Part shown: positions 1,092-19,055 of the stretch, one piece after another
Layout of the letters: each line of letters begins with the position of its first letter
Numbering within the stretch: the stretch's first letter is position 1
Virus record (IMG/VR): IMGVR_UViG_3300008627_000081
Location: 1-20,252 of that record
Strand: one strand, 5' to 3'
Length of the DNA stretch: 20,252 bases
Source of the DNA: a virus
Translations under genes and position numbers: made by a program
Notes under the pieces: generated by a model
The model's database searches: none
What the model saw: only the letters and a program-made list of their open reading frames with translations
Told to the model about the DNA's origin: nothing

Positions 1092-1481
1092 ATGTCCCTA
1101 TCAACAAGAACATACAAAGACCTTGCATTTTCAATGTTTGCAAACCCTATGAACGGAGACATTGGAAAATCTACTGGTGCAACTGCTGTTAAACGTGCAA
1201 TCGTTGGAATACTCAAGACCAATTTTAATGAACGAGTATTTCAACCAGAGTTTGGTTCTAACATTCGTGCTCTTTTGTTTGAACCAATGAATCCAATCAC
1301 AGAACAACGAATGAAGACAGAGGTTGAAGAAGCAGTCAAGAGACACGAACCAAGAGCAACAGTCATTGGTGTTACAGTAGAAGGACAAGAGGAACAAAAT
1401 CGTTACGTGGTAAAGGTTCTTTTTAATCTATCTTCAGAAGCAGAACCACAAGAATTAGAAACCTATTTTGAACGAGTATAA
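1092..1481 (+). CDS. 25: Baseplate wedge subunit gp25 (gp25/TssE-like)
   Basis: The product is 129 residues, close to T4 gp25 (about 132). Family features are visible: the N-terminal motif DLAFSMFANPMNGDIG, the block AIVGILKTNFNERVFQPEFG, then IRALLFEPMNP, and the EPR core motif at residues 86-88 (HEPRATVIGV). In T4, gp25 joins the wedge to the sheath at the baseplate top, and its relative TssE does the same job in type VI secretion; family members are often labelled lysozyme-like although the role here is structural. The stop overlaps the start of gp6 by one base (TAATG), so the two are probably translationally coupled. The leader is AT-rich with no clear Shine-Dalgarno sequence. Confidence 0.95.
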   Translation: MSLSTRTYKDLAFSMFANPMNGDIGKSTGATAVKRAIVGILKTNFNERVFQPEFGSNIRALLFEPMNPITEQRMKTEVEEAVKRHEPRATVIGVTVEGQEEQNRYVVKVLFNLSSEAEPQELETYFERV

Positions 1482-3358
1482 TGGCAGAAATCACGAAACT
1501 CAACATTACAGAATTAGATTTTGATGCTATTAAGAATAACCTAAAAGATTACTTTGCATCACAAAGTGAATTTTCTGACCACGATTTTGATGGATCTGCA
1601 ATTTCGGTGATGTTGGATATTCTTTCTTACAATACTCACTATAACGCATATTACATGAATATGCTTGCAAGTGAAGCATTTTTGGATTCTGCACAATTGA
1701 GAGATTCAGTTGTTGCAAAGGCCTCAATGTTGGGATACACACCAAGGTCTGCAAGAGGTTCAAAAGCAAATGTTGCGATTACTGTCACACCAGGCGATTC
1801 TCCTGCAACTATTACCATTGACAAGAATACACAATTTACATCAACTGTCAATGGAACATCGTATGTTTTCTGTACATCAAACTCTCATACAATCACACCA
1901 GCGGATGGGGTTTATACTGCATCGGGAGTGGAGTTGACACAAGGAGTTCCAGTTACATTCAGATACACGGCGAATACTGCAAATACAGAGCAAAAATTTT
2001 TACTTCCAAATGAAAACACAGATACAGATTCACTTACAGTAACAATACAAGAATCGGCGACTGATACAAACACAGCAGTTTATACATTAGCAACAGACAT
2101 AACAACAGTCAACTCCACTTCTAATGTTTATTTCTTGTCAGAGGACACAAGTGGTCAGTTTAAGGTTGAGTTTGGAGATGGTGTTCTGGGAAGAAAACCA
2201 ATCACAGGAAATATTGTTCTTCTTGCTGGTCTTGTAACAGAAGGTGCAGATGTAAATGGTGCAAACACCTTCTCAGCTTCAGGTACAGTCGGTGGATACT
2301 CTACTGTTTCGGTTGCAACATCAAACGCTGCGGTAGGAGGTTTAGACAAAGAAACATTGGAGAGTATTAAGTTCAATGCACCAAAGAACTTTGAAACACA
2401 AAATCGTGCAGTCACAACTGATGATTATAAGTCAATTGTGGAAGGAGAAGTTTCTGGGTTGGATAGTGTTTCTGTTTGGGGTGGACAGGACAACGAAACT
2501 CCAGCGTTCGGAAAAGTTTATATTTCTGCAAAACCATCGGGTGCAACTGCATTATCAACATCTCAGGTTGCACTTATAAAATCAGCCGTATCAGATTATA
2601 ATATCTTGTCAATCACACCAGAAGTTGTGGACCCAGACATCATTGACTTGATTATGAGTATCACAGTAAAATATGATTCACGACTAACAACATTATCATC
2701 TGGGGCTGTTGCAGAAAAAGTTGTTGCAACAATTAATAATTACAGAACACAGAATTTGTTGAAGTTTGGTTCTATTTTCAGATATTCGACTTTGTCAACG
2801 AAAATTGACAATACAGACACTTCAATCATTAATAATTTGACAACAATTACTGCAAAGAAGGGTATTGTTCCTTCAACAACTGCAAATAATGCTTATACGT
2901 TGAGTTTTAATAACCCCATTTATAGTGAATCAACTACTTATGAAGGTGCAGTAACATCAACAGCATTTTCTTATACGGATGCGGCTGGAAATACTTACAG
3001 TTCTGCATTTTTTGATGACGTAGATGGAGTAATGAGAATATATTATCTTTCTGGTTCAACAAAGGTTCTTCTTTCAAACAATGCTGGTACTGTAACTTAT
3101 TCAAATGGACACATTGCATTATCTTCCTTCAAACCAAATTCGTTCACAGGTTCTAAACTTGATTTTACAATCAAACCTTCTGTTAATGATTTGATTCCAA
3201 TTAGAAACCAACTTTTTGATATTGCAAATACGAATATTACTATTACAATGCAAGATGATGCTGGAACAGGAACAACTGTAACTTCTACAAGTGCAACTGG
3301 AACTGTTTCTTCGACCACAACTGGAACTTCATCTGGTACATTAAGTACAACCTATTAA
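1481..3358 (+). CDS. 6: Baseplate wedge subunit gp6 (baseplate J-like)
   Basis: The product is 625 residues, against about 660 for T4 gp6. The N-terminal block FSDHDFDGSAISVMLDILSY and the following NTHYNAYY...LRDSVV...LGYTPRS match the T4 gp6 pattern (FLDYDFEGS...LLAYNT...LRSSVV...GYLPTS, as recalled). Later come FKVEFGDGVLG, a GADVNGANTF block, then NFETQNRAVTTDDYKSIVEG and GKVYISAKPSG, which follow the gp6/J-like core order. The last 30 or so residues are almost only Thr, Ser and Gly, a low-complexity tail not typical of T4. In T4, gp6 dimers form the inner baseplate ring, bridging gp25, gp53 and gp7. The start shares its A with the gp25 stop codon. Confidence 0.95.
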   Translation: MAEITKLNITELDFDAIKNNLKDYFASQSEFSDHDFDGSAISVMLDILSYNTHYNAYYMNMLASEAFLDSAQLRDSVVAKASMLGYTPRSARGSKANVAITVTPGDSPATITIDKNTQFTSTVNGTSYVFCTSNSHTITPADGVYTASGVELTQGVPVTFRYTANTANTEQKFLLPNENTDTDSLTVTIQESATDTNTAVYTLATDITTVNSTSNVYFLSEDTSGQFKVEFGDGVLGRKPITGNIVLLAGLVTEGADVNGANTFSASGTVGGYSTVSVATSNAAVGGLDKETLESIKFNAPKNFETQNRAVTTDDYKSIVEGEVSGLDSVSVWGGQDNETPAFGKVYISAKPSGATALSTSQVALIKSAVSDYNILSITPEVVDPDIIDLIMSITVKYDSRLTTLSSGAVAEKVVATINNYRTQNLLKFGSIFRYSTLSTKIDNTDTSIINNLTTITAKKGIVPSTTANNAYTLSFNNPIYSESTTYEGAVTSTAFSYTDAAGNTYSSAFFDDVDGVMRIYYLSGSTKVLLSNNAGTVTYSNGHIALSSFKPNSFTGSKLDFTIKPSVNDLIPIRNQLFDIANTNITITMQDDAGTGTTVTSTSATGTVSSTTTGTSSGTLSTTY

Positions 3359-3367
3359 TAGAGAATC

Positions 3368-6300
3368 ATGTCTGCAAAAGTCACTGCAAAAGCTGTTTCA
3401 CAAGTATCGGAACAACTTCCTTCTTTTATAGGTGAGGACTATCCTCTTTACGAAAAATTTATCAAAAATTATTTTGAGTTCCTTGAGACAATTGTTGTAC
3501 CATACGAAATTGTAACAGGATATGAAGATGCATATACTTTTATAGTTGGTGAAACAGTCACAGGTCAGACATCTGGTGCAACTGCTGTCGTAAAAGGAAC
3601 TGGTGCTAATTCTGGTCTTAATAAACTTTTTTTAGAACCAACAAATACACTTGATTTTGTTGTCGAAGAAACTATAGTTGGTAGCACTTCTTCTGCTTAT
3701 GGAAGTGTAACATCTCTTACACGAAACCCTGTCAATGCTCTAAAACTTTTTACATCTTTAATTGATCCTTCTCAAACAACAGAAGGTGTTCTTGAATTTT
3801 TCAAAAAAGAGTTTTATCCAAATATTAGAAATTCTTCTACTACAGACCTAAGAAAATTTATACAACACCTCAAAAATTTCTATCGGTCTAAAGGAAGTGA
3901 AAACTCTTTTAGGACATTGTTTCGTATTCTTTATGGACAAGAAAATGTAGATTTTTATTTTCCGAAAACTGACCTACTCAAAGTATCAGATGGTAAATGG
4001 TCGCAAGACATAATTGTTCAGTTAATTTTTGATTCAAATTATCTTTCTTTCAATGGTCTTACAATCACTGGTGGTTCATCTGGTTCTACAGCATTTGTAT
4101 CTAATATTACTGACAGAAAACTTGGCACTATTCCAATCATAGAACTTGTCCTTACAAATGCAAGTGGAACTTTTACTCTTGGTGAAACAATTACTGCAAC
4201 AACAGCTGCAGGAACAGTTATTTCTGCTACTATCACAGGACAATTGACAGACATCACAATCAACGATGGTGGTGCAGGGTATAATAATGATGATGAAATA
4301 ACAATTACAGATTCTACACTTCAAGGTTTTGGGGCTGCAGCTACAGTCGCAAATACATCTGGTGATGAAGTTACCATTATGACATCAACAAATGATGGTA
4401 ATGGTTATGAAGTCGATGATACATTTACATTTGATAATACAGGAACAAATGCAGATGTAACAGCAGAAGCAAAAGTCACGGAACTCAAAGACACTTATGA
4501 TCTCAGTGTTATTACTTCTCAACTATTGTCTGCGGTAGAAACCATTTCATTTAACCTAGCGGGTGCATCTACAATATTACCTTTCAATGTTGCAGTCCAA
4601 GCAGGATTTTTGATTGCAGATAATGCTACTTTTGCAAGTGCAACAAAAGTCGGAGAAGTTGTCTCTATCACAAATTCAGAGATAACAGTTTATGATCGAG
4701 CAAACGAGGCGCCTGGAGCACAATATACCAATTCGGGTCAAACCGCAGCTCTTCCGAAAACCTATGTAGCATTTGCAGATGCAGATACACTTTTTCTTTT
4801 TGATGAAAATGAAACTCCGATTACTGGAGCACAATCTGTAAGTATAGATGATGCATCATTTACAACTGTAACTTCTGATATTCTTCTCAATGGTTCTTTT
4901 GGTGCAGATTTTAATAATGCGGCGATAGGTTCGAGCATTCAAGATGCAATGACATTTGAAACCAAGACCTTTGGAAGAATTAATGCGGTTTCAATTACAT
5001 CTCATGGAAGTGGTTATGAATCAGTCCCAACTATAAGTATCACAAATGATTATTATGAAGACCTATTTGAACCAGATGCTACTTATGGTGGACTCAAGGG
5101 AAAAAATGCAGCCTTTACAATTGGAACACTTGGTGGTGAAATTATTGAGATTACAATTAGTGAGGGAGGATTTGGTTATATCACAGACCCAACTGTAACT
5201 GCATCAACAAATGCTTCCTCAACAGGTTCTACTTCTGCAAATCTCTCACCAGTATTGACTGCAACAAGAACGAAAACTGGTGTATTTACAGATGATTCAG
5301 GCAAACCAAGTTCACAGAAAAAAATTCAGGACAATGATTATTATCAAGATTTTTCTTATGTAATTCAAACATCTGATTCAATCGATGTATGGAGACAAGA
5401 TGTTCTTAAATTATTGCATCCTGCTGGTATGAAATTATTTGGTGAAGTCGCTATTGCAACATTGTTAAATGCGACAATTTTTGATAGAGGTTCTAATAAC
5501 ATCAATTCAACACTTGAAAATGGTTTATCACAATATCGTGAACTTTCTTTACAGTTAATAACAGAAATTCTTGATAATCTTTATGTGACAGCTGAAGTTG
5601 AAATGAATAAAGAGGTGCAAATGGACCTCTTTGCGGACAATTCAATTTATTATGAAAATTCTGGTGATGACCCTTTCTTATATTATGAAGATGGTGCAAT
5701 TATTATAATGGAAGATGGAGATGATCTTCTCACAGAAAGTGCTACTGAAATTACAAATAGTCAATTCACTTCAATTGCATCTGCAATTATTGAGTATTTA
5801 CAAACAATCCTTTCTACAAATGGATTGCCGGCCGAGTTCTTTTCTTTGTTATCAATTAAGAATGTAACAACTGTAGTGAATGACCCAAATTTACATTTAG
5901 AGTTAGGGAGTAATGAAGATGGTGGTGTTATTCTAAAGGAAGATGGAACAAATTTGTTAGCAGAAGAACCAAGAACAAAAATAATCACTTCGGAACCACA
6001 CTATTTTCATGTGAACGATGAAATTTACTTGAATGAATTTGAAGGGACAAATGTTGACCAGTTAAATGGCAAGTTGTTTTCTGTATCAGATGTTGATATT
6101 GAAAATTCTACTTTGTTGATGGAAGATGAAGACAACATAATGCTCGAGTCAGAAGATGGTTCAATCTTGAGTGAAGAAATATCAATCTTTACTTTGAGTG
6201 ACCCAATTTCATTGACAGATTATGGAACTATAGATGTTCCAACTGATGATGTTGATACATCTAATGTAACTATTACAACAAATGGTAATGTATATCGTTC

Positions 6301-6856
6301 TGGGAAAACAGCCTCTTCTGGATTGCCAATACAATTATTGAACAAAGAATATATTGGAGAATATTCCGATTATGAAATAGACCATTATACTTATCATTAT
6401 TTTTCTGGTGATTTGTCTTCTATTTCAAGTGATACTTATCTTCAATTTGACCCATATGACATAATTGTAGACCAAAATGGGTTGCTCTTGGAAGATGGTG
6501 ATGAAATTCTCTTGGAAGATTCATTTCCATCAACTCATGCTTCTTATAGTGGTACATCTTCGGGATTGGGGAAATTAATAGAAGAAGAGATTGTTTTATC
6601 TGCTGAACATTTTGATGGTAGAATTACTTTGACAGAAGCAGAAACAAAAGTTGTTCTTGGGTCTTATCTTAAAGATGAGACAACCGCAGGAGAAGACAAT
6701 ATATTACTTGAGGATAACGAAAAAATAGAAATTGAAAATTCAGGATTTCAAAATGGAGTATTAACTTTTGATCAACCATTTGATTATGTGAGACAATCAG
6801 GCACAAACGGATTTGGATATTTTAAACATAGAGTTGACCAAAGAGTTTCCGTATAA
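3368..6856 (+). CDS. 7: gp7-type baseplate wedge protein with beta-module insert and acidic repeat tail
   Basis: The product is 1162 residues and sits between gp6 and gp8, the place of T4 gp7 (1032 residues). Three blocks resemble the C-terminal half of T4 gp7: an N-terminal FIGEDYPLYEKFIKNYFEFL (about 18-37), FYRSKGSENSFRTLFRILYG (171-190; T4 has FYSTKGIEASYKFLFKVLYN as recalled) and IDVWRQDVLKLLHPAGM (672-688; T4 has SRWKSDVIRFVHPVGF). The second and third are separated here by about 480 residues of beta modules of the GETxTG...SGA and GxGY kinds. The N-terminal propeller-like half of T4 gp7 is absent. After residue about 770 comes an acidic tail with ED-G/D repeats, absent from T4 gp7 as I recall it. 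The assignment as gp7 rests on these motifs plus gene order; 'virion structural protein' is the cautious alternative. The start has only a weak GAGA upstream, and the stop codon lies inside a late promoter for gp8. Confidence 0.82.
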   Translation: MSAKVTAKAVSQVSEQLPSFIGEDYPLYEKFIKNYFEFLETIVVPYEIVTGYEDAYTFIVGETVTGQTSGATAVVKGTGANSGLNKLFLEPTNTLDFVVEETIVGSTSSAYGSVTSLTRNPVNALKLFTSLIDPSQTTEGVLEFFKKEFYPNIRNSSTTDLRKFIQHLKNFYRSKGSENSFRTLFRILYGQENVDFYFPKTDLLKVSDGKWSQDIIVQLIFDSNYLSFNGLTITGGSSGSTAFVSNITDRKLGTIPIIELVLTNASGTFTLGETITATTAAGTVISATITGQLTDITINDGGAGYNNDDEITITDSTLQGFGAAATVANTSGDEVTIMTSTNDGNGYEVDDTFTFDNTGTNADVTAEAKVTELKDTYDLSVITSQLLSAVETISFNLAGASTILPFNVAVQAGFLIADNATFASATKVGEVVSITNSEITVYDRANEAPGAQYTNSGQTAALPKTYVAFADADTLFLFDENETPITGAQSVSIDDASFTTVTSDILLNGSFGADFNNAAIGSSIQDAMTFETKTFGRINAVSITSHGSGYESVPTISITNDYYEDLFEPDATYGGLKGKNAAFTIGTLGGEIIEITISEGGFGYITDPTVTASTNASSTGSTSANLSPVLTATRTKTGVFTDDSGKPSSQKKIQDNDYYQDFSYVIQTSDSIDVWRQDVLKLLHPAGMKLFGEVAIATLLNATIFDRGSNNINSTLENGLSQYRELSLQLITEILDNLYVTAEVEMNKEVQMDLFADNSIYYENSGDDPFLYYEDGAIIIMEDGDDLLTESATEITNSQFTSIASAIIEYLQTILSTNGLPAEFFSLLSIKNVTTVVNDPNLHLELGSNEDGGVILKEDGTNLLAEEPRTKIITSEPHYFHVNDEIYLNEFEGTNVDQLNGKLFSVSDVDIENSTLLMEDEDNIMLESEDGSILSEEISIFTLSDPISLTDYGTIDVPTDDVDTSNVTITTNGNVYRSGKTASSGLPIQLLNKEYIGEYSDYEIDHYTYHYFSGDLSSISSDTYLQFDPYDIIVDQNGLLLEDGDEILLEDSFPSTHASYSGTSSGLGKLIEEEIVLSAEHFDGRITLTEAETKVVLGSYLKDETTAGEDNILLEDNEKIEIENSGFQNGVLTFDQPFDYVRQSGTNGFGYFKHRVDQRVSV
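4256..5210 (+). repeat. GxGY-type beta modules inside the gp7-type gene
   Basis: At least four copies of a short module of the form [I/V]xI-x(2-4)-GxGY-x(3)-[D/P]-x-[I/F/V] are visible in the protein at about residues 297-315 (DGGAGY), 338-355 (NDGNGY), 541-558 (SHGSGY) and 595-613 (EGGFGY). They are protein-level repeats with diverged DNA. A second module type, GETVTGQTSGATAVV at about 56-70 and FTLGETITATTAAG further on, lies upstream. Related GxGY modules occur in the gp8 and DUF4815 proteins. Confidence 0.6.
5681..6739 (+). repeat. Dispersed acidic ED-G/D repeats in the gp7-type protein tail
   Basis: Five clusters of a hydrophobic-acidic motif, roughly hhhEDGDxhhhE, are spread through the C-terminal third: residues 772-791 (YYEDGAIIIMEDGDDLLTES), 849-867 (GVILKEDGTNLLAEE within it), 916-937 (LLMEDEDNIMLESEDG within it), 1037-1051 (NGLLLEDGDEILLED) and 1110-1124 (DNILLEDNEKIEIEN). 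Each looks like a hydrophobic strand, an acidic turn, and another hydrophobic strand, often ending in Glu. Spacing between clusters is irregular, about 60-120 residues, so this is not a tandem array. Confidence 0.75.
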
Positions 6857-6886: not shown

Positions 6887-8719
6887 GTGGCCGCATTAGT
6901 AACACAAAATTTTAGAGTTCACAACGCAAAGCAGTTTCGTGAAATGTTTGACGAAACTGAACTGTTTGGTGGAACTTCAGTAACGGATGCACAAGGATTG
7001 TTGAATACAAATGTGTATCTTTTCATCGGAAAATCAAATGCATGGTCTGGGTCTTTTAGTGACACAAGTGTACCCAACCCTGCAACAGCTGCAAATCCTT
7101 CTTCGGATACGACAGCAAACACATCTTATACTCATTGGAAGGACATGATTGCGGCCAAGAAAGTAGCTTCCTCTGATGTAAGTCATGTTGTCACTAGACA
7201 TAATTGGACTTCTGGTAGACATTATTCAATGTACGACCACACAGAAACAATGACAAATCTCCTAGCAGAAAGAACAGGTCAAACAATCAGCACTGGAACA
7301 GGAACTTTGTATCCAATGTACGTGATGAATAGTAACTTCAATGTTTACAAATGTCTTTTTAATAACAAGTCAGAAGCAGGAGTTCCACAACCATCAACTA
7401 CAGAACCAACAGCGACAACGACAACAGCAGGAGCTCCTGCTGCAATTGCAGATGGATATATTTGGAAATATATGTATTCTATTTCTGCAGCGGATTCTCT
7501 CAAGTTTGTGACATCGGGATATATTCCTGTTAAACAACTTCGTGATGCAAATGCACTTGGAAATACTGGAACCGCTGGTGGGTTGGGAACAGGCGGAACA
7601 AAAAATGATGGATCTGACCAAGCGACAATCGAATATAATGCAGTAGATGGAGCTTTAGACGTATTTGTAATCTCTAATGATGGTGCTAATTATCATTTTG
7701 AAAACAACATTTCAATTGCATCGGGAACAGGGACTTCACTTGTTCTTTCTTCATCAGGATTGACAACAGATGATTACTATAATAATTCATCGGTATATTT
7801 CACTTACTCTGGTTCATCATATGTAAGAAAAGTCACAGATAGTTCTTATAATGCTGGAACGTCACAAATGACCCTTACTCTTGATTCTACTTTAGGAGTA
7901 ACGTTATCTGGTACACTTACCGCAAATGTAGCACCTTTTGCAAGAATTATTGGTGACGGACACGGACAAGAAATTGTTCTGACTGCAAATAGTTCAGCCG
8001 CAAATTCAGTTGGTGGTGTTACTATTGTAAACTCAGGAAACAGTTTTACAACAGCGTCTCTTGACGTTTTACAACAAGGAACAGGTGCAGGAGCGAGCGC
8101 AGTCGTTACACCTATTATTCCACCAAAGGGTGGTCATGGATATGACTCAGTAACAGAATTGGGTGGATATTTCATAATGATCAATTCAAAACTAACTCAA
8201 GATGAATCTGGAACTTTCACCACCACAAACGATTTTCGTAAGATCGGATTGTTGACAGATCCAAATACTGATGGTGCATTTACCAAGTATACTGGTACAA
8301 CAGCAACTCAAGCAAAAACATTTACTTTCACATCAAATACTGCTGCTATAAGTGAGGATATCACAATTTCACAGAACAGTGTGGGTGCAAATGGTGCTAC
8401 TGCTTATGTTGTTGATGTAAATGCTACTGCAAGTACAATAAGAGTTATTGATATTACCAATGGTGCAAACTCAAGTGTAGGGTATGACGGAAAGCCGGGT
8501 TCATTTCAATGTACAACTTCTAATGCTGCAAGTGGATTTACTGGTGTAAGTGATGCAATAGCAACATTTACTTACACTGGTGGTTCCGCTGTCCTAACCA
8601 ATGTTGCAAATGGTTCAATGCAAATTGGTTCAGGTGATGTTATCTACATCGAGAATCGTGCTCCAGTTGCAAGAGCATCTGACCAAACAGAAGATATTAA
8701 ACTTATCATAGAATTCTAA
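6887..8719 (+). CDS. 8: Baseplate wedge subunit gp8, enlarged
   Basis: The product is 610 residues, against 334 for T4 gp8. The N-terminal part carries VYLFIGKSNAWSGSF, SYTHWKDMIAAKKV and the VVTRHNWTSGRHY block, which parallel T4 gp8 (FITFGRSEPWS, MWTHMMGTVKV, VIPRRDWGDTRY as recalled). It is followed by VYKCLFNN and DGYIWKYMYSIS (T4 VYRCL, DGYVWEYLFEI). The C-terminal end, DVIYIENRAPVARASDQTED, matches T4 MIYMENRPPIIMAMDQTEE closely. DFRKIGLLTDPN (about residue 446) matches T4 GFRQISIITNP. Between YIPV (about 218) and GGHGYDSV (about 415) there is extra beta-rich, Ser/Thr/Gly-rich sequence, most of it not present in T4. In T4, gp8 dimers bind gp7 and gp10 in the wedge. It starts at GTG and has its own late promoter and ribosome binding site. 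Confidence 0.95.
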   Translation: MAALVTQNFRVHNAKQFREMFDETELFGGTSVTDAQGLLNTNVYLFIGKSNAWSGSFSDTSVPNPATAANPSSDTTANTSYTHWKDMIAAKKVASSDVSHVVTRHNWTSGRHYSMYDHTETMTNLLAERTGQTISTGTGTLYPMYVMNSNFNVYKCLFNNKSEAGVPQPSTTEPTATTTTAGAPAAIADGYIWKYMYSISAADSLKFVTSGYIPVKQLRDANALGNTGTAGGLGTGGTKNDGSDQATIEYNAVDGALDVFVISNDGANYHFENNISIASGTGTSLVLSSSGLTTDDYYNNSSVYFTYSGSSYVRKVTDSSYNAGTSQMTLTLDSTLGVTLSGTLTANVAPFARIIGDGHGQEIVLTANSSAANSVGGVTIVNSGNSFTTASLDVLQQGTGAGASAVVTPIIPPKGGHGYDSVTELGGYFIMINSKLTQDESGTFTTTNDFRKIGLLTDPNTDGAFTKYTGTTATQAKTFTFTSNTAAISEDITISQNSVGANGATAYVVDVNATASTIRVIDITNGANSSVGYDGKPGSFQCTTSNAASGFTGVSDAIATFTYTGGSAVLTNVANGSMQIGSGDVIYIENRAPVARASDQTEDIKLIIEF

Positions 8720-8724
8720 AATAA

Positions 8725-11700
8725 ATGGCAAATGTAACTACAGATTTTAATGTAAGTCCTTATTATGATGATTTCGATGAGGATAAGGGATTTTTACGTG
8801 TTCTTTTTCGCCCAGGTTATGCAGTACAAGGAAGAGAACTAACACAACTTCAAACCATTCTCCAAAAACAAGTTGCAAGATTTGGAGATCATATGTTCAA
8901 GGATGGTTCAAAAGTCCTTGGAGGTGAAGTCACTCTTGACACGGAAGTTCAGTTTCTAAAACTTTCATCGTCAGATACCGCAAGTACATTTGCTTCAGGA
9001 ATTATAAACGATACAAGTTCTACAGTAGGTGCAGGAACCACACGAGCACAAGTCATTTCTACAATCAACTCTGTAGGTTCAGATGCACCGACTCTTATTC
9101 TTAAGTATCTCTCAGGAACAGCATTTTCTGCTGGTTCTACAGTTTATCTTGAAGGAACAACAACGACTGCAACTGTAGCCGCAACAAGTGCTACAGGAGA
9201 TGCATCAATTGTAAGTATTAATCGTGGTATATATTTCACAGGTGGATTTTTTGTATTGTGTTTACCACAAACATTAGTCCTTGAAAAATACAATAACACA
9301 CCCACTTATCGTATTGGTCTTACAACTACTGAAGCAATTATTGATAGTGCTTCTGACACATCTTTGTTAGACCCTGCATCTGGAACAACAAATGCAAATG
9401 CACCAGGCGCAAATCGTTTCAAAGTTACACTTACTCTTGCAAAAAAAGAAACATCTTCAACTGACCCTGTAGCTGCAAATGCAGATGCAAACTTCATAGA
9501 GTTGATGAGAGTTGAGAGTGGTGTTCCTACAAAACACGTAAAGTATCCAGTTTATGGTGAAATTGAAAAGATGATGGCTCGCAGGACTTATGATGAGTCA
9601 GGTGATTATACAATTAAACCTTTTCCAATTCAAGTCATTGACCACCAAGGAGCAACTGGAACAACTCTTGCATCATCTGATACAACAATTACTGGTGTTC
9701 TGACAGATTTTGAAAATGATTTTGAAGTTGATGATAATATTCGTCTTTCATCTGGAACTGCAACTGCAAATATTACATCAATTACGAACTCGACCTCAAT
9801 GGTTGTTAATACTGCTTTGGGAGATGGAACTTCACAAACTATTCTCAATAATAATCGTATTTCTGCAGCAATGGAGCCAGGAAAAGCCTATGTCAAGGGT
9901 TATGAATATGAAAGTATCGGTGTAGAATACGTTGATGTCAAAAAGGGCCGAGGAACAACTACAACTACAAGTTTGCCTGTCAACCCAAATATGGGCAATA
10001 GTCTAAAAGTAACAAACTTTGATTTCGGAAATGCAGCTGCCGGAGAAGCAGTTTTCAACCCTGAAGTATTGACAACTGCCTTTGATTTGCACTCTGTAAC
10101 ATCTAATAATATCACTCAAACAAGTGCAAATACTTACAACTCTACCAAAATTGGAACAACAAAAATAAGACAGATTGATTACTCTTCTGGTGTTTTTACA
10201 AATGTAGCCGTAAGCAATACTGCAATATTTGATGCGTATATTTTTGACACACAATTTACGCCAATAACAATGAATGTTGGAACACCATACACTTCTGGTG
10301 CAACTGACATTACTTTAGAAAGAGCAAAAAGTACAACAGTTGCCGATGCTTATAATGGTGCAAAAATCACTTTGGGTTCAGAGACAAGAGAAATTACAGA
10401 TTATGCAGAATCTTTTTCAGTAGGACTTGAGGATGGTCTTGGAAGTATTGTACTAGACAGTACGGATGGAGTTTTAGACGCCGACGATGATATTTTACTA
10501 GAATTTGGTGGTGCAACACTCAATCTATCATTTTCAACAAGCGCAGATATTTCAAATACAGTAACACTCAACTTCTCAACAAGAGAGATTGAGGCACTTG
10601 CAATTGCGAATTCTACTAATGGAATCGCAAACACTCCTTCTATGGATGTTGATTTGACAAGTAAAGTCAATATAAACGACAGAGCAAGTAATACAACTTT
10701 ATTTGATACTGATTTGAATTCATTGGTTTTTCCAATTGGAATTGACAATGTAAAAAATTTAAACAACGAAGCATTGACATTTCAAGCAAAAAAAGTTATT
10801 GATGCAACATTTTCTGGTTCAGGTCCAACTGCTACAATTACTGCGCCTTCTAACTTTACTTTTGAAACTGAAGGAAAATCATCTGGAACACTTGAGACAC
10901 CAAAAGCAAATTATCTTGTTTATGCAACAAACTCTGCCGCATCTTTAGCAAACTCTACTGATTCAATTACAACTGGAACAAATTACATTGCAGCTGGTGA
11001 AATAGTTGATGTTACTATTGGAGTAAACTCTGGTTCATCACTTACACTTACACCAACAAGAAATGGTAATACATTTACTGCCGGATCTTTTACCGCAAAA
11101 GTATATGCAACTGTAGATACAACTGCACAAAATGAGAAGACAAAAACACTTGTAAGTGCAACTGTTCCTGCTGCTGGTGCAGACATAGAAGATGCTGCCG
11201 CAACTCTAACGATTAGTGGTGACACAAATACAACGGATCGTCTTGCAAACGGACAATTTTTGATTGCACCATTTACTGGAACACAGTCATTACTTGTTTC
11301 TGACATTTTTCAGATCAACTCAATTATTGAAGCAGAAGATGCTGATGCAACGGCTGCATCTACACAATTTAGTTCTGCACTTTTGACCGCAGCTGTCAGT
11401 AATACCGCACATGTAAATAATATTACTTCACGATACATTTTCAATAATGGACAGAAAGACAACTTTTTAGAACATGGTTCTATTACTTTGAAGGCAGGAC
11501 AAACAAAACCAGCAAATACCATATTTGTTCTTTTTGATTATTTCGAGCATTCTACAAATGACGGATACGCAAGTGTAGAATCATATACTGGTGTTACTTA
11601 CGAACAAATTCCAGCATTTGTTTCACCAACAACTGGTGTAAGAAAAGAATTAAGAGATTCGATTGACTTCAGACCAATCAAATCAATAGGTTCGTCTGGA

Positions 11701-14700
11701 ACGTTACAAGCAAATGACAAGATACCTGATGCAGATGTAAACTTGACGGCAAATGTTGTATCGTATCTAGGAAGAAAAGATAAACTTGCACTCACAAAAG
11801 ACAGAGTGTTTAATGTTATTGAAGGTGTTTCTTCAGATGAACCGATTCTCCCGGCAGATGATGAAGATGCAATGACACTTTATAATCTTGACATTTCACC
11901 CTATACTTTTAATGCAAGTGACGTAGATACACAATATATTGATAATCGCCGATTTACAATGAGAGACATCGGTAAGATTGAAAAACGTGTTGACTCACTT
12001 GAATATTATACGGCATTGAGTTTATTGGAAAAAGAAGCATCTGATTTGTCAATCAAAGATGATGCAACAGGAACAGAACGATTTAAGAATGGTATTCTTG
12101 TTGATTCTTTCAACGGACACAATATTGGTGATGTTTCAAATGCAGATTTTAAAGCTGCAATTGATTTTGAGATGAAAGAATTACGTCCTTCTTATTACTC
12201 TGATTCATTTAGATTTTCACACGATTCTACAGGTTCAAGTGCAAATACTACAAAGACAGGTGATTTGGTTACACTCAACTATTCATCATCTAATCTTGTT
12301 GTTCAATCTCTCGCAAGTAATACAGAAAGTTTGAATCCATTTGGCACAAATCAACTCAACGGACAATTATCTCTTTCTCCAGCCAGTGACGTTTGGTTTT
12401 CTGATTCAGGAAGACCATTGGTTCTTATTAACTTGGAAGGACTGAACGATCATTGGGTGCAAGGAAACGAAAATGGTTTTGGAAAACAATGGGATGATTG
12501 GAGTTTTACTTGGAGTGGTTCACAAGTCAATGATGATAATTTGATAAAGACACGAAAAACATCTGCTACTTCAAATACAGTTTCTCGTTTTGCTAATGTT
12601 ACTGGAAAAAACAAGACACGAACAGGTATTGTATCCACAAAACCACCAGAGACAATCAAAAGATCAATTGGAAATAGAACAGTAAGTGTTTCTATTGTTC
12701 CATTTATACGAGGACAAAAAGTCCAGTTTGTTGCAAAAGGTATCAAACCAAATGCAACTTTCTATCCTTACTTTGACAATCAATCTGTATCTGGAAATAC
12801 AAAACCAGCATATGCATTGACTTATACTGCAAATACCGATTCTGCTAATTCTGGTGTTTTTAATACGAACACAGGTGAACAGATTACATTAACACAAGTC
12901 AATAGTAATGGTTCAGATAATGTAAATGCAACTGCTAAAACTCTTTATCAAAATGCATCAACTATTCTTGTCTCTGATATTACACAAGAAGTAACATTGT
13001 CAAGTGCTCCGTCAGGATTGACAATCGGAGAAACAATTACTTTTTCTGATGGTACGAATTCTGTAACTTCTATACTTGAATCTTTCAATAATGGAAATAG
13101 TACACTTACAGTAAATAGTATTTCAGGAACAATTTCAACTGACATGGATACTATCACAGGTTCAACGACAGGAACTATTACTGGAACAGTTTCTCATGCT
13201 GGTGCATTTACAACTGGTGAGGTATTTACTGGAACTGGTTCTGCAAAAGCGAATGGAAATATTACAGCTGTTGGTTCGGCAGTTCCTGCATTTAGTGGAA
13301 CATTAACTGCTGATAAGAATGGTGTTGTCGCAGGAGAATTGACAATACCAACAGATACATATCGTGTTGGTGAAAGATTGTTTCGATTAACAGACAATTC
13401 AACTGATACAGTAGCCAGTACAGAGTCGGTTGCAGAAAAAATCTTTAGAGTCCAAGGACTTTTGGAATCACGTTCTGGTAGGATTTCTTCAACAAGACCT
13501 TTGGAACCAAAACGTGAAAACGTCAAAGAAAAGAATGTTACTCAAGATACAATCAATCGTATTTCAACATCTACAAACTGGATAAATCCACTTTCTCAAA
13601 CTTTTATCGTAGACAGAAATCTACACGAAAATGGTGTATTTGTCAGTAGTATTGATGTGTTCTTTTCTACAGTTGATACAATTCTGCCCGTTACGTTACA
13701 GTTACGACCAATAATAAACGAGGCCCCAAGTTCTTCACAGATTATTCCTTTTTCAGAAGTAACAGTCAATGCTGCCGATGTAAATGTGAGTGCAACTGCA
13801 CCTAATGTAGCAACATCGACTACTTACACAAGATTCACATTTGATTCGCCAGTTTATCTTTACCCAGATGAATATGCAGTTGTTCTAACTTCACCATCCG
13901 AGAACTATTCGGTACATGTTGCAAATCTCGGCGAAACAGTAAGAAATACAACTGACACAAAAGTTTCACAACAACCTTTTGTTGCATCGTTCTACGAACC
14001 TCAAAATTCATCAATCTGGCAACCAAACGTTGAAAAACAGATGATGTTTAGAGTCAATCGTTGTAACTTTAATACTGGAACTCATGCAGTTTATCTTTCG
14101 CTTGAAGCAAATCCACTTTCAGGAAATACTTCAGGTATCAATTATGACGTATTCAAATTGTCAACAAGTGAACTAACATTTTCAAATACAGCGATTGCAT
14201 ATTCTTTCAAAGGTATCGATGAATCAAAAACTGTAAATAGTGATTCATCAAGAACATCACAGATTGATTCTGCATTTACAAATTTTTCTGCAAATCGAAA
14301 TATCACACTTGGAACACAAAGGAAAGTTGTTGCACCAATAAGTTCAATAGGACAAGTTACTTATGCAGCCAACAACTATTACTTACGTGCATTATTGACT
14401 TCAAACGATTCAAAGATTTCTCCAGCAATTGATATGTCACGAATCAATTTGATTGTAGTAGAAAATGAAATCAATCGTGGATCGTATGCTAATTCAGATA
14501 TAGTATTAACTGCAAATACAGGTGTTTTTGCATCAGCACCAACTGCTACAATAAGTGGTGGGGGTGGAACTGGAGCAAATGTAACAGTAACTACTACTGG
14601 AACAAGTCCCAGTGTCTATGTAACAGGATTAACAATAAACAATGCTGGTTCTGGATATTATGAAAGTGGCACCATTGCATTTTCTTTGACTCCAAGTTCT

Positions 14701-15138
14701 GGAACAACGACTGCAACTCTTACGAGTGAACTTGGTTCTGATGGTGGAAATGTAAAGACAAGATATATATCCAGAAGAGTAACATTGGAAGATGGTTTTG
14801 ACGCTCAGGACTTGAAAGTTTTCCTAAACGCATACAAACCAAAAGATACAGATATAAAAGTGTACTACAGAGTACACAATTCAGAAGACCCAGAAGATTT
14901 TGAAGACAAATCTTATGTTCTTTTCACACAAGAAACAGATGCAAATCTAATTTCTGCAAGTGAAAGTGACATTAAAGAGTATGTGTTTAGAACTTCTGCA
15001 AATAATATTACATATACTTCTGGAACTCAAACATACGATAATTTCAAGACATTCTCAATCAAGATTGTTCTTGGTTCAGCATCAACTGCAATCATACCAA
15101 AGATTAAGGATATGAAAGCAATCGCATTAGATTTTTAA
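8725..15138 (+). CDS. Giant DUF4815-type virion structural protein
   Basis: This 2137-residue protein is the largest in the window. Its start, SPYYDDFDEDKGFLRVLFRP then GYAVQGRELTQLQTILQKQV, is the DUF4815 signature of marine T4-like phages. EIEKMMARRTYDESGDYTIK follows near residue 280 and GKAYVKGYEYES at 386. Further conserved blocks are NPFGTNQLNGQLSLSPASDVW (about 1204), KGIKPNATFYPYFD (1338), NPLSQTFIVD (about 1621), QPFVASFYEPQNSSIW (about 1750), SPAIDMSRINLIVVENEIN (1899) and the C-terminal IPKIKDMKAIALDF. Between them are long Thr/Ser/Asn-rich beta stretches, including a GSGYYESG module and one acidic LEDG...LDADDDILLE stretch at about 566-596. It follows gp8 by 5 bases with no Shine-Dalgarno sequence, so it is probably coupled to gp8. 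A peripheral baseplate or fibre-bearing role is inferred from position; the molecular function is unknown. Confidence 0.9.
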   Translation: MANVTTDFNVSPYYDDFDEDKGFLRVLFRPGYAVQGRELTQLQTILQKQVARFGDHMFKDGSKVLGGEVTLDTEVQFLKLSSSDTASTFASGIINDTSSTVGAGTTRAQVISTINSVGSDAPTLILKYLSGTAFSAGSTVYLEGTTTTATVAATSATGDASIVSINRGIYFTGGFFVLCLPQTLVLEKYNNTPTYRIGLTTTEAIIDSASDTSLLDPASGTTNANAPGANRFKVTLTLAKKETSSTDPVAANADANFIELMRVESGVPTKHVKYPVYGEIEKMMARRTYDESGDYTIKPFPIQVIDHQGATGTTLASSDTTITGVLTDFENDFEVDDNIRLSSGTATANITSITNSTSMVVNTALGDGTSQTILNNNRISAAMEPGKAYVKGYEYESIGVEYVDVKKGRGTTTTTSLPVNPNMGNSLKVTNFDFGNAAAGEAVFNPEVLTTAFDLHSVTSNNITQTSANTYNSTKIGTTKIRQIDYSSGVFTNVAVSNTAIFDAYIFDTQFTPITMNVGTPYTSGATDITLERAKSTTVADAYNGAKITLGSETREITDYAESFSVGLEDGLGSIVLDSTDGVLDADDDILLEFGGATLNLSFSTSADISNTVTLNFSTREIEALAIANSTNGIANTPSMDVDLTSKVNINDRASNTTLFDTDLNSLVFPIGIDNVKNLNNEALTFQAKKVIDATFSGSGPTATITAPSNFTFETEGKSSGTLETPKANYLVYATNSAASLANSTDSITTGTNYIAAGEIVDVTIGVNSGSSLTLTPTRNGNTFTAGSFTAKVYATVDTTAQNEKTKTLVSATVPAAGADIEDAAATLTISGDTNTTDRLANGQFLIAPFTGTQSLLVSDIFQINSIIEAEDADATAASTQFSSALLTAAVSNTAHVNNITSRYIFNNGQKDNFLEHGSITLKAGQTKPANTIFVLFDYFEHSTNDGYASVESYTGVTYEQIPAFVSPTTGVRKELRDSIDFRPIKSIGSSGTLQANDKIPDADVNLTANVVSYLGRKDKLALTKDRVFNVIEGVSSDEPILPADDEDAMTLYNLDISPYTFNASDVDTQYIDNRRFTMRDIGKIEKRVDSLEYYTALSLLEKEASDLSIKDDATGTERFKNGILVDSFNGHNIGDVSNADFKAAIDFEMKELRPSYYSDSFRFSHDSTGSSANTTKTGDLVTLNYSSSNLVVQSLASNTESLNPFGTNQLNGQLSLSPASDVWFSDSGRPLVLINLEGLNDHWVQGNENGFGKQWDDWSFTWSGSQVNDDNLIKTRKTSATSNTVSRFANVTGKNKTRTGIVSTKPPETIKRSIGNRTVSVSIVPFIRGQKVQFVAKGIKPNATFYPYFDNQSVSGNTKPAYALTYTANTDSANSGVFNTNTGEQITLTQVNSNGSDNVNATAKTLYQNASTILVSDITQEVTLSSAPSGLTIGETITFSDGTNSVTSILESFNNGNSTLTVNSISGTISTDMDTITGSTTGTITGTVSHAGAFTTGEVFTGTGSAKANGNITAVGSAVPAFSGTLTADKNGVVAGELTIPTDTYRVGERLFRLTDNSTDTVASTESVAEKIFRVQGLLESRSGRISSTRPLEPKRENVKEKNVTQDTINRISTSTNWINPLSQTFIVDRNLHENGVFVSSIDVFFSTVDTILPVTLQLRPIINEAPSSSQIIPFSEVTVNAADVNVSATAPNVATSTTYTRFTFDSPVYLYPDEYAVVLTSPSENYSVHVANLGETVRNTTDTKVSQQPFVASFYEPQNSSIWQPNVEKQMMFRVNRCNFNTGTHAVYLSLEANPLSGNTSGINYDVFKLSTSELTFSNTAIAYSFKGIDESKTVNSDSSRTSQIDSAFTNFSANRNITLGTQRKVVAPISSIGQVTYAANNYYLRALLTSNDSKISPAIDMSRINLIVVENEINRGSYANSDIVLTANTGVFASAPTATISGGGGTGANVTVTTTGTSPSVYVTGLTINNAGSGYYESGTIAFSLTPSSGTTTATLTSELGSDGGNVKTRYISRRVTLEDGFDAQDLKVFLNAYKPKDTDIKVYYRVHNSEDPEDFEDKSYVLFTQETDANLISASESDIKEYVFRTSANNITYTSGTQTYDNFKTFSIKIVLGSASTAIIPKIKDMKAIALDF

Positions 15139-15141
15139 ACT

Positions 15142-15393
15142 ATGTACGCAAAGACGGATAAAGTTGGAATCATCAGAGACATGAACAACCAAGCGTTGTT
15201 GTCAAATGATATTTCAAGTTTACACGCACATCGTGAAGAAATAAAACGAAAGAAAGAACTACATAATAAATTGAATGATATAAATATTATGAAAGAACAA
15301 ATTCAACAATTGATGGTGCTTCGTGATGAGTTTCAAGAAATAAAACAATTGTTACAAATTCACATTCAGAGAGATAATAAATGGCAGGTGTAA
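15142..15393 (+). CDS. Small coiled-coil protein, function unknown
   Basis: The product is 83 residues. After a short N-terminal strand (KTDKVGIIRDMNNQALLSND) almost the whole rest is a charged heptad-like helix (HREEIKRKKELHNKLNDIN, then QIQQLMVLRDEFQEIKQLLQ), so a coiled coil is likely. It starts 3 bases after the preceding gene and its end overlaps the tail-fibre start by 13 bases, so it belongs to the same transcription unit. Small coiled-coil proteins in this place are common in marine T4-like phages and usually stay unnamed. It might be a fibre-trimer partner or assembly factor; nothing in the sequence decides this. Confidence 0.8.
   Translation: MYAKTDKVGIIRDMNNQALLSNDISSLHAHREEIKRKKELHNKLNDINIMKEQIQQLMVLRDEFQEIKQLLQIHIQRDNKWQV
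15279..15286 (+). promoter_or_regulatory. Possible T4-type late promoter inside the 83-residue gene
   Basis: TATAAATA is an exact match to the late-promoter element, inside the coding sequence and 94 bases before the tail-fibre start. It would give the fibre its own transcript. In AT-rich DNA an 8-base match can arise by chance, and here it encodes Asp-Ile-Asn-Ile, so support is moderate only. Confidence 0.4.
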
Positions 15394-18300
15394 ATAGAAG
15401 TAATGTCGCTGTAACCGATACGTTTGATACGTGGAGAATTCGTACAAACGAGGTAAACACTACACTTAACGAAGCAACAGATGCTATTACTGCAAACACA
15501 ATCATTTTTCGTGACGATAGTTCAAATTATACTGCAAATGCAGCGACACTCAATGCAATTGCTGTCACACACGGAACAACCACTAGTGCAGTCACAGTAA
15601 CATCTGCTCTTGCAGCCGAATCTGATGGAACCAAAGCATCTATTCTTACAACTGGTGGTATTTACGCAACACTAGATTCAAAGTTTGCCGCTGATTTAAC
15701 AATCGGTGCTAATTTATCAGTCGAAGCACACAGTACACTTGGTAATGCAGTAACAGATACAATTACCTTCACAGGTAGAATCGCTTCAGGAACACATTTA
15801 CTGCCGATTGCAAACAATTCTACAAACTTTGGAAGTGCAGATTTACAGTTTCAAAAAATCTTTTCTGAACAGAACTTAATTGTTGCAACACAAGATATTA
15901 ATGCAAACGTATTTTCTGTAACATCTGCAAATGGAGCAGGACACACAGCCGTTCTTAAGAATGATGCAGCTGTAACAGGAACAGTTCTCCAAGTTATTTC
16001 AAATTCAAATAGCACAGGAACAAGAGACATTACAAAAATTCATAATAGTAATGTTTCAGCAACTGGTGCAACTACTTTACACGTTCAAACAGATGCTGGT
16101 AGAGCACTTTTTATTGATGCAAATCTTGCTGATGGTGGATATGCATTACAAGTTGATTCTGAAATCGCAACAACTAATACAATGGCGGTTGATGCAGCTA
16201 CAACGACTGCAACTGGAGCGTTATTTAATTTTCCAAGTTTGACAACTGGTTCTGGTATTGACGTAACTTCTGCATCCTCAGACTTGGGTACAGCTGGCGC
16301 TGTTGTAGAAATTACACAATCTTCCGCTTCCATGACCTCTGCAAATGCAGCCGTTTTGAGTGTAAATCAAGCAGGTGAAGGAACTTACGGATTAAAGATT
16401 AATTCTTCTCACGCAACTGCAAACTCTTCATTGAGAATTGATTCTGTTGCAACTACTGAAAACGTAATAGAAGTCGTTGACAATTCACTTTCATCTGGTG
16501 ATATGTTTAATATGTCAACATCTGCCGCTCATAGTGGACAGATGATTTCATTATCATCAACTGCAACTGGTGATACTGCAAGAGGTGAGGCACTTTTAAT
16601 TGATTATCGAACAGCAAACACAACAGCAAATGCAATAAGAGTTACAGACGGAACCTCAGATACTGTTACAGTATCTTCCAAAGGTGATGTCACAATGGCA
16701 GGTAATCTTGACGTTCAGGGTACAACAACACAAATTACTACAACTACAACACAAATTACTTCATCTGCAACTACTGATAATATTTTTGAAGTAACTGGTT
16801 CTTCTTTGTCAACTGGTGGAGTTGCAACATTTTCTTCAACTGGTTCTAGTACAGGTTCAAGGTCATTAGTAAGTGTTATTCAGGAACATGCTTCTGCAAC
16901 TGGTTCAACTGGTTTGAATGTTAGAGCAGATGCTGGTAGGGCAGTTTTTATTGATGCAAATCTTGCCGATGGTGGATATGCATTAGAAATAGATTCAGAA
17001 GTCGCAACCACAAATACAATGGCAGTTGATGCAGCAACTACAACTGCAACTGGTGCTTATTTTAATTTTCCAAGTTTAACAACTGGAACTGGTATTGATG
17101 TAATTTCCGCATCTTCAGACTTGGGTTCTGCTGGTGCAGTTGTAGAAATTACGCAATCTTCCGCTTCCATGACCTCTGCAAATGCGGCTGTCTTAAGTCT
17201 CAATCAAGCAGGTGAAGGAACCACTGGTCTAAAAATTGCTACAACTCATGCAACTGCAAATACTGCATTAAGAATTGATTCAGATCAGACTACACAAAAT
17301 GTAATTGAAGTTGTGGCAGATGATCTTACTTCAGGTGATTTGTTGAATGCAAATACAAATGCAGAACACACAGGTCAGATGTTTTCACTCACATCTGCTA
17401 ATACGGCAGATTCCACAAGAGGTGAAGCATTACACATTCTTTATCGTACAGCAAATACAACTGCAAAAGCAGTCACAGTTGCAAATAGTTCTGCGGATAT
17501 TTTTACAGTAGAACAATCTGGTGATGTTGCAATTGGAAGAGATTTATCTATTGGTGGTAATTTATCCGTTCAGGGCACGACAACACAAATTACTTCATCT
17601 GCAACTACTGATAATATTTTTGAAGTAACTGGTTCTTCTTTAACATCAGGTGAAGTTGCAACATTTACTTCAACTGGTTCTGGTGTAGGTACATTAGTAA
17701 GTATTATTCAGGAACACGCTTCAGCAACTGGTGCAACTGGTTTAAATATTAGAGCAGATGCTGGTAGAGGTGTTTTTATTGATACAAATCTTGCTGCTGG
17801 TGGTTATGCGTTAGAGATAGATGCAGACCAAACAACAGGTGGAGCAGTCAAATTAGATGCGGCCACAACTGGTGGTGCTAGTGCAAAAGGCGCAGAGTTT
17901 CTTTTTCCTGCACTTACAACTGGAACTGGTATTGACGTAACTTCTACATCCTCAAACTTAGGAACCGCTGGTGCAGTTGTAGAAATTACGCAATCTTCTT
18001 CTTCTATGTCTTCTGCAAATGCGGCTATTCTGAGTGTTAAACAAGCAGGTGAAGGGACATACGGATTAAAAATTGAATCAACTCATGCAAGTGCAAATTC
18101 TTCTCTTAGAATTGATTCATCCGCACAGACAAAAAATGTCATAGAAGTAGTTGATAATTCACTCTCATCTGGTGATATGTTTAATATGTCAACATCTGCT
18201 GCTCATAGTGGACAGATGATTTCACTTACGTCTTCTGCTACTGCTGATTCTGCAAGGGGTGAAGCCATATTTGTCGATTATAAATCTGCAAATACAGATG

Positions 18301-19055
18301 CAAATGTTTTTAGAATAACAAACTCTGATGCTGGAGTTGATACATTTACTGTATCACAGGGTGGTGATGTAATGTTGAAAGGTAATCTTCATGTTAAGGG
18401 AACCACAACACAAATTAATACAACACAAACTCTCGTAAAAGACAAAACAGTAATTTTAGGTGCTGGAAGTGACGTAGTAGAAAATTTAACATACTCACAA
18501 CACGCAACTGCTCCTTCTGTTACATCAACTGCTCATGGATTGGTTTCTAACGATATAATTTTTTGTGTCGCTGCAACTGCAAGTGGAGTAATTACTTCTG
18601 AAACACTTTATAAAATTACAAGAGTAGATGATGATACTTTCACACTTGCATTACGAGATGGTACTGCAATTGACACATCTTCAGATTCTACTGCAAGAAC
18701 ATTTTCTTTTATTGGAAAACAAGAAGATACAACTGTTGATGATGCAGGAATATATTTGCCTGGTAACACAGCAATACATACTTTAAAGTGGGATGATACG
18801 GATAATTATTGGGAAGTAAATGATTCTTTCAAAGTTGACTCTACGGCACAATTTGTATTGCCAAAAGGAACGACTGCGGAGAGGCCTGGAGCGATAACTG
18901 CATCTCAAGCACAAATTGTCACAGGTGCAATGAGATATAATACTACCAATGATAAGTATGAAGGTGTGACAAGTACAGATGGGACAGATGCTTCAGGTTG
19001 GGAAAACATAGCGACTGAATCTTTTTCCATAGCAGTTTCAATTGCTTTGGGGTAG
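15381..19055 (+). CDS. Long tail-fibre protein with three internal repeats
   Basis: The product is 1224 residues. The N-terminal block VTDTFDTWRIRTNEVNTTLN then EATDAITANTIIF is the start typical of tail-fibre-like proteins of marine T4-like phages and is probably the virion-attachment end. Residues about 176-1020 form three long repeats of about 278-291 residues, each carrying DAGRA/GVFID, GGYAL, GAVVEITQSS, AGEGT and RIDS blocks, and each closing with a GNL(D/S/H)V(Q/K)GTTTQI strand. After the repeats come a short HGL-x-x-DI module (about 1052) and the C-terminal block LPKGTTAERPGAITASQA with GAMRYNTTNDKYEGV and GWENIA, a common fibre tip ending. The protein is Ser/Thr/Ala/Gly rich, beta-rich, and has no visible signal or membrane segment. 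The receptor and host range cannot be read from this. No intramolecular chaperone domain is visible. Confidence 0.88.
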   Translation: MAGVNRSNVAVTDTFDTWRIRTNEVNTTLNEATDAITANTIIFRDDSSNYTANAATLNAIAVTHGTTTSAVTVTSALAAESDGTKASILTTGGIYATLDSKFAADLTIGANLSVEAHSTLGNAVTDTITFTGRIASGTHLLPIANNSTNFGSADLQFQKIFSEQNLIVATQDINANVFSVTSANGAGHTAVLKNDAAVTGTVLQVISNSNSTGTRDITKIHNSNVSATGATTLHVQTDAGRALFIDANLADGGYALQVDSEIATTNTMAVDAATTTATGALFNFPSLTTGSGIDVTSASSDLGTAGAVVEITQSSASMTSANAAVLSVNQAGEGTYGLKINSSHATANSSLRIDSVATTENVIEVVDNSLSSGDMFNMSTSAAHSGQMISLSSTATGDTARGEALLIDYRTANTTANAIRVTDGTSDTVTVSSKGDVTMAGNLDVQGTTTQITTTTTQITSSATTDNIFEVTGSSLSTGGVATFSSTGSSTGSRSLVSVIQEHASATGSTGLNVRADAGRAVFIDANLADGGYALEIDSEVATTNTMAVDAATTTATGAYFNFPSLTTGTGIDVISASSDLGSAGAVVEITQSSASMTSANAAVLSLNQAGEGTTGLKIATTHATANTALRIDSDQTTQNVIEVVADDLTSGDLLNANTNAEHTGQMFSLTSANTADSTRGEALHILYRTANTTAKAVTVANSSADIFTVEQSGDVAIGRDLSIGGNLSVQGTTTQITSSATTDNIFEVTGSSLTSGEVATFTSTGSGVGTLVSIIQEHASATGATGLNIRADAGRGVFIDTNLAAGGYALEIDADQTTGGAVKLDAATTGGASAKGAEFLFPALTTGTGIDVTSTSSNLGTAGAVVEITQSSSSMSSANAAILSVKQAGEGTYGLKIESTHASANSSLRIDSSAQTKNVIEVVDNSLSSGDMFNMSTSAAHSGQMISLTSSATADSARGEAIFVDYKSANTDANVFRITNSDAGVDTFTVSQGGDVMLKGNLHVKGTTTQINTTQTLVKDKTVILGAGSDVVENLTYSQHATAPSVTSTAHGLVSNDIIFCVAATASGVITSETLYKITRVDDDTFTLALRDGTAIDTSSDSTARTFSFIGKQEDTTVDDAGIYLPGNTAIHTLKWDDTDNYWEVNDSFKVDSTAQFVLPKGTTAERPGAITASQAQIVTGAMRYNTTNDKYEGVTSTDGTDASGWENIATESFSIAVSIALG
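15906..18420 (+). repeat. Three long mosaic repeats in the tail-fibre gene
   Basis: Units start at about 15906, 16779 and 17613 (NVFSVT, NIFEVT, NIFEVT); landmark blocks recur 837 and 828 bases apart (ATTGAT landmarks at 16113, 16950 and 17778). The longest perfect match I found is 62 bases, 16746-16807 with 17580-17641. Copies differ in places, so the repeats are old or mosaic, not a recent perfect duplication. Confidence 0.85.

Follow-up and report, generated by a model that had tools for sequence, protein, structure and literature searches.

Mosaic repeat units in the probable tail-fibre gene of a T4-like marine phage

A probable tail-fibre gene lies downstream of VrlC

We analysed a 20,252-base metagenomic viral contig (IMG/VR record IMGVR_UViG_3300008627_000081), hereafter called the window. 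Pfam and PHROG matches revealed a run of baseplate genes in the order gp25 (1092-1481), gp6-like (1481-3358), wedge protein (3368-6856), gp8-like (6887-8719) and VrlC. The VrlC-like baseplate protein (DUF4815; 8725-15138, plus strand; PF16075, E=7e-49; PHROG 358) is the conserved left neighbour of the fibre gene. When its gene was searched by tblastn, the matches included the 'putative VrlC protein' of Pelagibacter phage Mosig, and the best named matches, at 35-38% identity, include Mosig and Methylophilales phage Melnitz, both Kyanoviridae. The baseplate gene order of Mosig and Melnitz resembles that of the window. Judged by this T4-type order, the phage is a Kyanoviridae-like, T4-like marine myovirus. 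The gp8-like protein, 610 aa long, matches the 478-position PHROG 438 profile end to end, and must therefore contain extra internal sequence.

The probable tail-fibre gene (15381-19055, plus strand) is a single open frame of 1224 aa, named for its position by VrlC. It lies downstream of VrlC with a single small conserved ORF of 83 aa intervening (15142-15393, plus strand), and homologues of this ORF immediately precede the fibre gene in three related contigs (L010, L014 and L015). In pelagimyophages, a hypervariable host recognition cluster begins at VrlC, and tail fibres adjoin VrlC in most genomes (PMC7029224). By its location on the VrlC side, the window gene appears to sit at the edge of this known VrlC-gp14 host recognition cluster of T4-like marine phages.

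Profile searches of PHROG, Pfam and PDB with the window fibre protein gave no significant family or structure match, and tblastn with the fibre, its N-terminus or the fibre of a distant relative (L002) gave no match among named phages. A weak match to Pfam PF11843 fell under the cut-off of that family and was disregarded. The C-terminus of the homologue in a close relative, IMGVR_UViG_3300017912_004368 (hereafter L001), matches PHROG 6002, 'virion structural protein' (E=7e-13). AlphaFold monomer models were beta-rich and of low confidence (pLDDT 46 and 37), too poor for comparison with a fold library. Given the lack of a family match and the poor models, the term 'fibre shaft' is based on genomic context and the form of the repeats, and 'tail fibre' is a probable function rather than a family assignment. 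The layout is that of a fibre, with a conserved N-terminus and a variable repetitive shaft and tip.

The shaft consists of three units of three modules

The conserved N-terminal part (15381-15905, plus strand; residues 1-175) putatively attaches the fibre to the virion, and its residues 1-171 are 93% identical to those of L001. It is followed by three units of ~278 aa, which start at 15894, 16770 and 17604 in an array that ends at 18425, and by the C-terminal domain (18426-19055, plus strand). Each unit is made up of three homologous, diverged modules of ~80-105 aa, termed A, B and C. A module profile matched the window protein nine times, three times in each unit, and L001 three times.

All modules are read from the plus strand and fall into recurring types. 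Copy 1 comprises module A of type A1, as in L001 (15906-16175), module B of type B1 (16176-16460) and module C with a linker, of type C1, as in copy 3 (16461-16778). Copy 2 carries type A2, shared with copy 3 (16779-17012), again type B1 (17013-17297), and type C2 plus linker, as in L001 (17298-17612). In copy 3, A2 (17613-17840) and C1 plus linker, as in copy 1 (18135-18425), flank a module B (17841-18134) that has a left part of its own with a 9-nt insertion and a right part like that of copy 1. A 62-nt exact direct repeat spans the copy 1/copy 2 junction (16746-16807, plus strand), and its partner lies 834 nt, or 278 codons, away at the copy 2/copy 3 junction (17580-17641, plus strand).

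The closest pair of copies switches along the unit

The initial annotation had described a mosaic in which copy 1 resembles copy 2 early in the unit and copy 3 later. All peptides quoted in its support are present where it had placed them, and the mosaic itself was confirmed, with a richer pattern than described, as the closest pair of copies switches along the unit. Overall DNA identity is nearly equal among the pairs (72% for copies 1 and 2, 72% for copies 1 and 3, 74% for copies 2 and 3). The sliding-window profile of the three pairs is not flat: over 60-nt windows, pair identity varies between about 0.42 and 0.97, and no one pair is best throughout. Over the first ~200 nt of the unit, copy 1 stands apart from copies 2 and 3, which match each other (identity 0.95 vs 0.50 for copy 1); the initial annotation had overlooked this. 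Copies 1 and 2 are the closest pair in early B. The later likeness of copies 1 and 3 was borne out from late B into C, and the near-identical DNA pointed out at 16491 and 18165 includes an exact 35-nt repeat.

Informative triplet sites follow the same course: 44 of 53 in columns 0-150 join copies 2 and 3, 36 of 47 in columns 210-360 join copies 1 and 2, and 26 of 29 in columns 590-670 join copies 1 and 3. Codon-order shuffles gave p=5e-5 for each of copies 2 and 3 and p=0.0008 for copy 1, for which a flat profile is rejected. When the first 180 columns were removed, the values were p=0.0008, 0.12 and 0.03 for copies 1, 2 and 3, the second of which is not significant. The three copies are most alike in B (0.82-0.90 in columns 390-480), and this module holds two 32-nt exact repeats. 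Landmarks reported to lie 837 and 828 bases apart keep these distances only before the 9-nt insertion of copy 3; after it the spacing is 837 and 837, and at the unit junctions it is 834. The main repeat spacings (837, 834, 828 and 1674) are all multiples of three.

Such a pattern might also arise if short reads of different copies or strains had been misjoined, given that the record is a metagenomic viral contig and that the contigs of several relatives stop inside or near the fibre gene. However, the longest exact repeat in the fibre ORF is the 62-nt pair (16746/17580), followed by one of 35 nt, and assembly with longer words would therefore not confuse the copies. Furthermore, no exact repeat as long as 15 nt occurs within L001, and the fibre frame of the window is open throughout. 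We regard an assembly artefact as extremely unlikely.

A one-unit relative combines the front of copy 1 with the back of copy 2

Repeat number, which the initial annotation had suggested comparing in related genomes, differs: the window has three units and L001 has one. At the DNA level, L001 is 89.9% identical to the window across the VrlC gene and 88.5% identical across the first downstream gene. Its fibre of 664 aa contains the single unit A1-B1-C2, with a front taken from copy 1 of the window and a back taken from copy 2. The comparison of unit number involves L001 as the one close relative found; searches of IMG/VR with the unit, the N-terminus, the C-terminus, the downstream gene and the junction DNA returned no further close relative, and GTDB genomes yielded none. 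Among distant relatives, module counts were ~3 in L002, at least 3 in L014, where the contig end cuts the gene, ~2 in L003 and ~2 in L015, whose contig is also cut.

Topology tests that included L001 gave opposite results for the two ends of the unit. For the A segment, the grouping of copy 1 with L001 and of copy 2 with copy 3 was favoured by 95 lnL units, and for the C segments the grouping of copy 1 with copy 3 and of copy 2 with L001 was favoured by 27 and 12 lnL units. A tree of all modules contains the same four pairs. In early B, copies 1, 2 and L001 fall together with copy 3 apart, and the tests allow every topology there. Parsimony sites are divided 45 to 1 in A and 18 to 0 in early C, in favour of opposite groupings. 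The A/C combinations of the three copies and L001 show the four-gamete pattern, which implies at least one recombination inside the unit between A and C, unless whole segments changed in parallel. The recombination point is most simply placed in the conserved module B. Recombination or gene conversion between copies, as first proposed from the repeats of the window, is therefore supported, since both the incongruent trees and the four-gamete pattern need recombination.

The distal part of the fibre differs more strongly between the two phages. The C-terminus (18426-19055; to 7995 in L001) is 57% identical in amino acids, compared with ~92-94% for the proteins on both sides, and the synonymous identity of the two phages is 0.51 there, against 0.78 for the fibre N-terminus and 0.76-0.81 for the neighbouring genes. 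One of the two lineages has therefore probably had its distal fibre domain replaced, and the divergence of this domain between conserved flanks indicates that swapping between phages contributed too.

This raises the alternative that all segments were imported from the fibres of other phages and that the copies never exchanged among themselves. The distal fibre, which differs by import or deep divergence, would fit such a history, as would the left B segment of copy 3, which is unlike those of copies 1, 2 and L001. But A2 is common to copies 2 and 3, and C1 to copies 1 and 3, and import alone would require one and the same event to have happened twice at homologous places. Moreover, the synonymous identity of copies 2 and 3 in A is 0.89 (vs 0.62 elsewhere), above the background between the window and L001. 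Import as the sole process is thus rather improbable.

Synonymous sites point to exchange over time

In early C, copies 1 and 3 have a synonymous identity of about 0.8-0.86, at or above the same background. Most remaining values between copies are 0.55-0.73, with a few small-sample values outside this range. The synonymous signal was significant for copies 2 and 3 in A (p=0.0004), marginal for copies 1 and 3 in C (p=0.03) and not significant in the other tests, and codons whose residue is common to all three copies gave no synonymous mosaic signal. This weak signal suggests that most exchanges are not very recent, and the sequences as a whole would fit repeated exchange over time rather than one fresh conversion.

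The mosaic signal lies mostly at amino-acid-changing sites, with a weak synonymous component outside module A, as would be expected if a plain duplication had been followed by uneven divergence or selection in the absence of recombination. However, the A and C topologies are opposite and each strongly supported, the four-gamete pattern is carried by sites at 45 to 1 and 18 to 0, and the junction repeat is exact over 62 nt. All three speak against this course of events, which we consider very unlikely.

Probable exchange and resizing of units by homologous recombination

Taken together, these results make it likely that the gene encodes a tail fibre, or a similar host-contact fibre, of a T4-like marine phage, whose units have been reassorted and resized by homologous recombination. 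The shaft would be a higher-order repeat of three A-B-C units, and units out of register would recombine homologously, either within one genome or between co-infecting relatives. Such events would reassort A and C modules and add or remove whole units. The A1-B1-C2 arrangement of L001 is the one expected after crossing-over between copies 1 and 2 within B, with copy 3 either lost in L001 or gained in the window, as the change may have run in either direction. The conserved part of B and the 62-nt junction repeats are the candidate exchange sites. Within-genome gene conversion, unequal crossing-over and exchange between co-infecting phages would fit the data alike. Unit number would presumably set shaft length, and shuffling of units may aid adaptation to changing hosts; from this we infer that a change in units could affect fibre length or host range. 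A bolder reading, to which we give little credence, is that the A-B-C repeat is a built-in shuffling device, in which the conserved B modules and the junction repeats are kept as sites of in-frame recombination and the population continually holds several fibre lengths and module combinations.

Duplication and mosaicism of fibre repeats are already known elsewhere. In Enterococcus phage EfV12-phi1, in-frame tandem duplications in the tail fibre, with a copy number that differs within the population, arose in evolving phage (PMC6365445). There, too, a long segment of a myovirus tail-fibre gene is duplicated in tandem and in frame, but the copies are new, near-identical and laboratory-arisen, whereas those of the window are ~72% identical, old and mosaic. 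Tail-fibre domain duplications also occur in the Xanthomonas phages OP1, Xp10 and Xop411, in a paper that cites host-range duplications in T4 (PMC2248197). As here, the number and order of repeated fibre domains vary among relatives, but those domains are smaller and N-terminal, belong to another phage group and are linked to host range. The tail-associated BACON tandem repeats of crAssphage are arrays that expanded through internal duplication, and some lineages also show horizontal transfer of domains (PMC6949934). They resemble the window in this mode of growth but concern another domain and single-domain duplications, whereas the window duplicates whole three-module blocks. The pelagimyophage host recognition cluster (PMC7029224) occupies the same site in T4-like marine phages, where it directly follows VrlC, but the variability described there is at the level of genes and that of the window lies inside one gene. 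The features particular to the present case are the three-module unit and the reassortment of modules relative to a one-unit relative.

The locus thus offers a clear natural case in which module exchange and unit-number change can be read from the sequence of a probable host-contact gene, from a group of ocean phages with poorly annotated fibre genes. It leaves the general picture of phage fibre variation unchanged, and may help account for the breaks in metagenome assemblies at such genes and for their lack of matches in fibre databases. The contigs L003, L007/L014, L009/L015 and L010 end inside the fibre gene or within ~160 nt after it, and local population or strain variation may break assemblies at this gene.

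A further diverged stretch was seen by eye in the VrlC gene at ~14490-14700. This Gly/Ser/Thr-rich stretch near the C-terminus (ISGGGGTGANVTV...) differs much more from L001 than the rest of the protein, which is 94% identical, and is possibly another exchanged segment.
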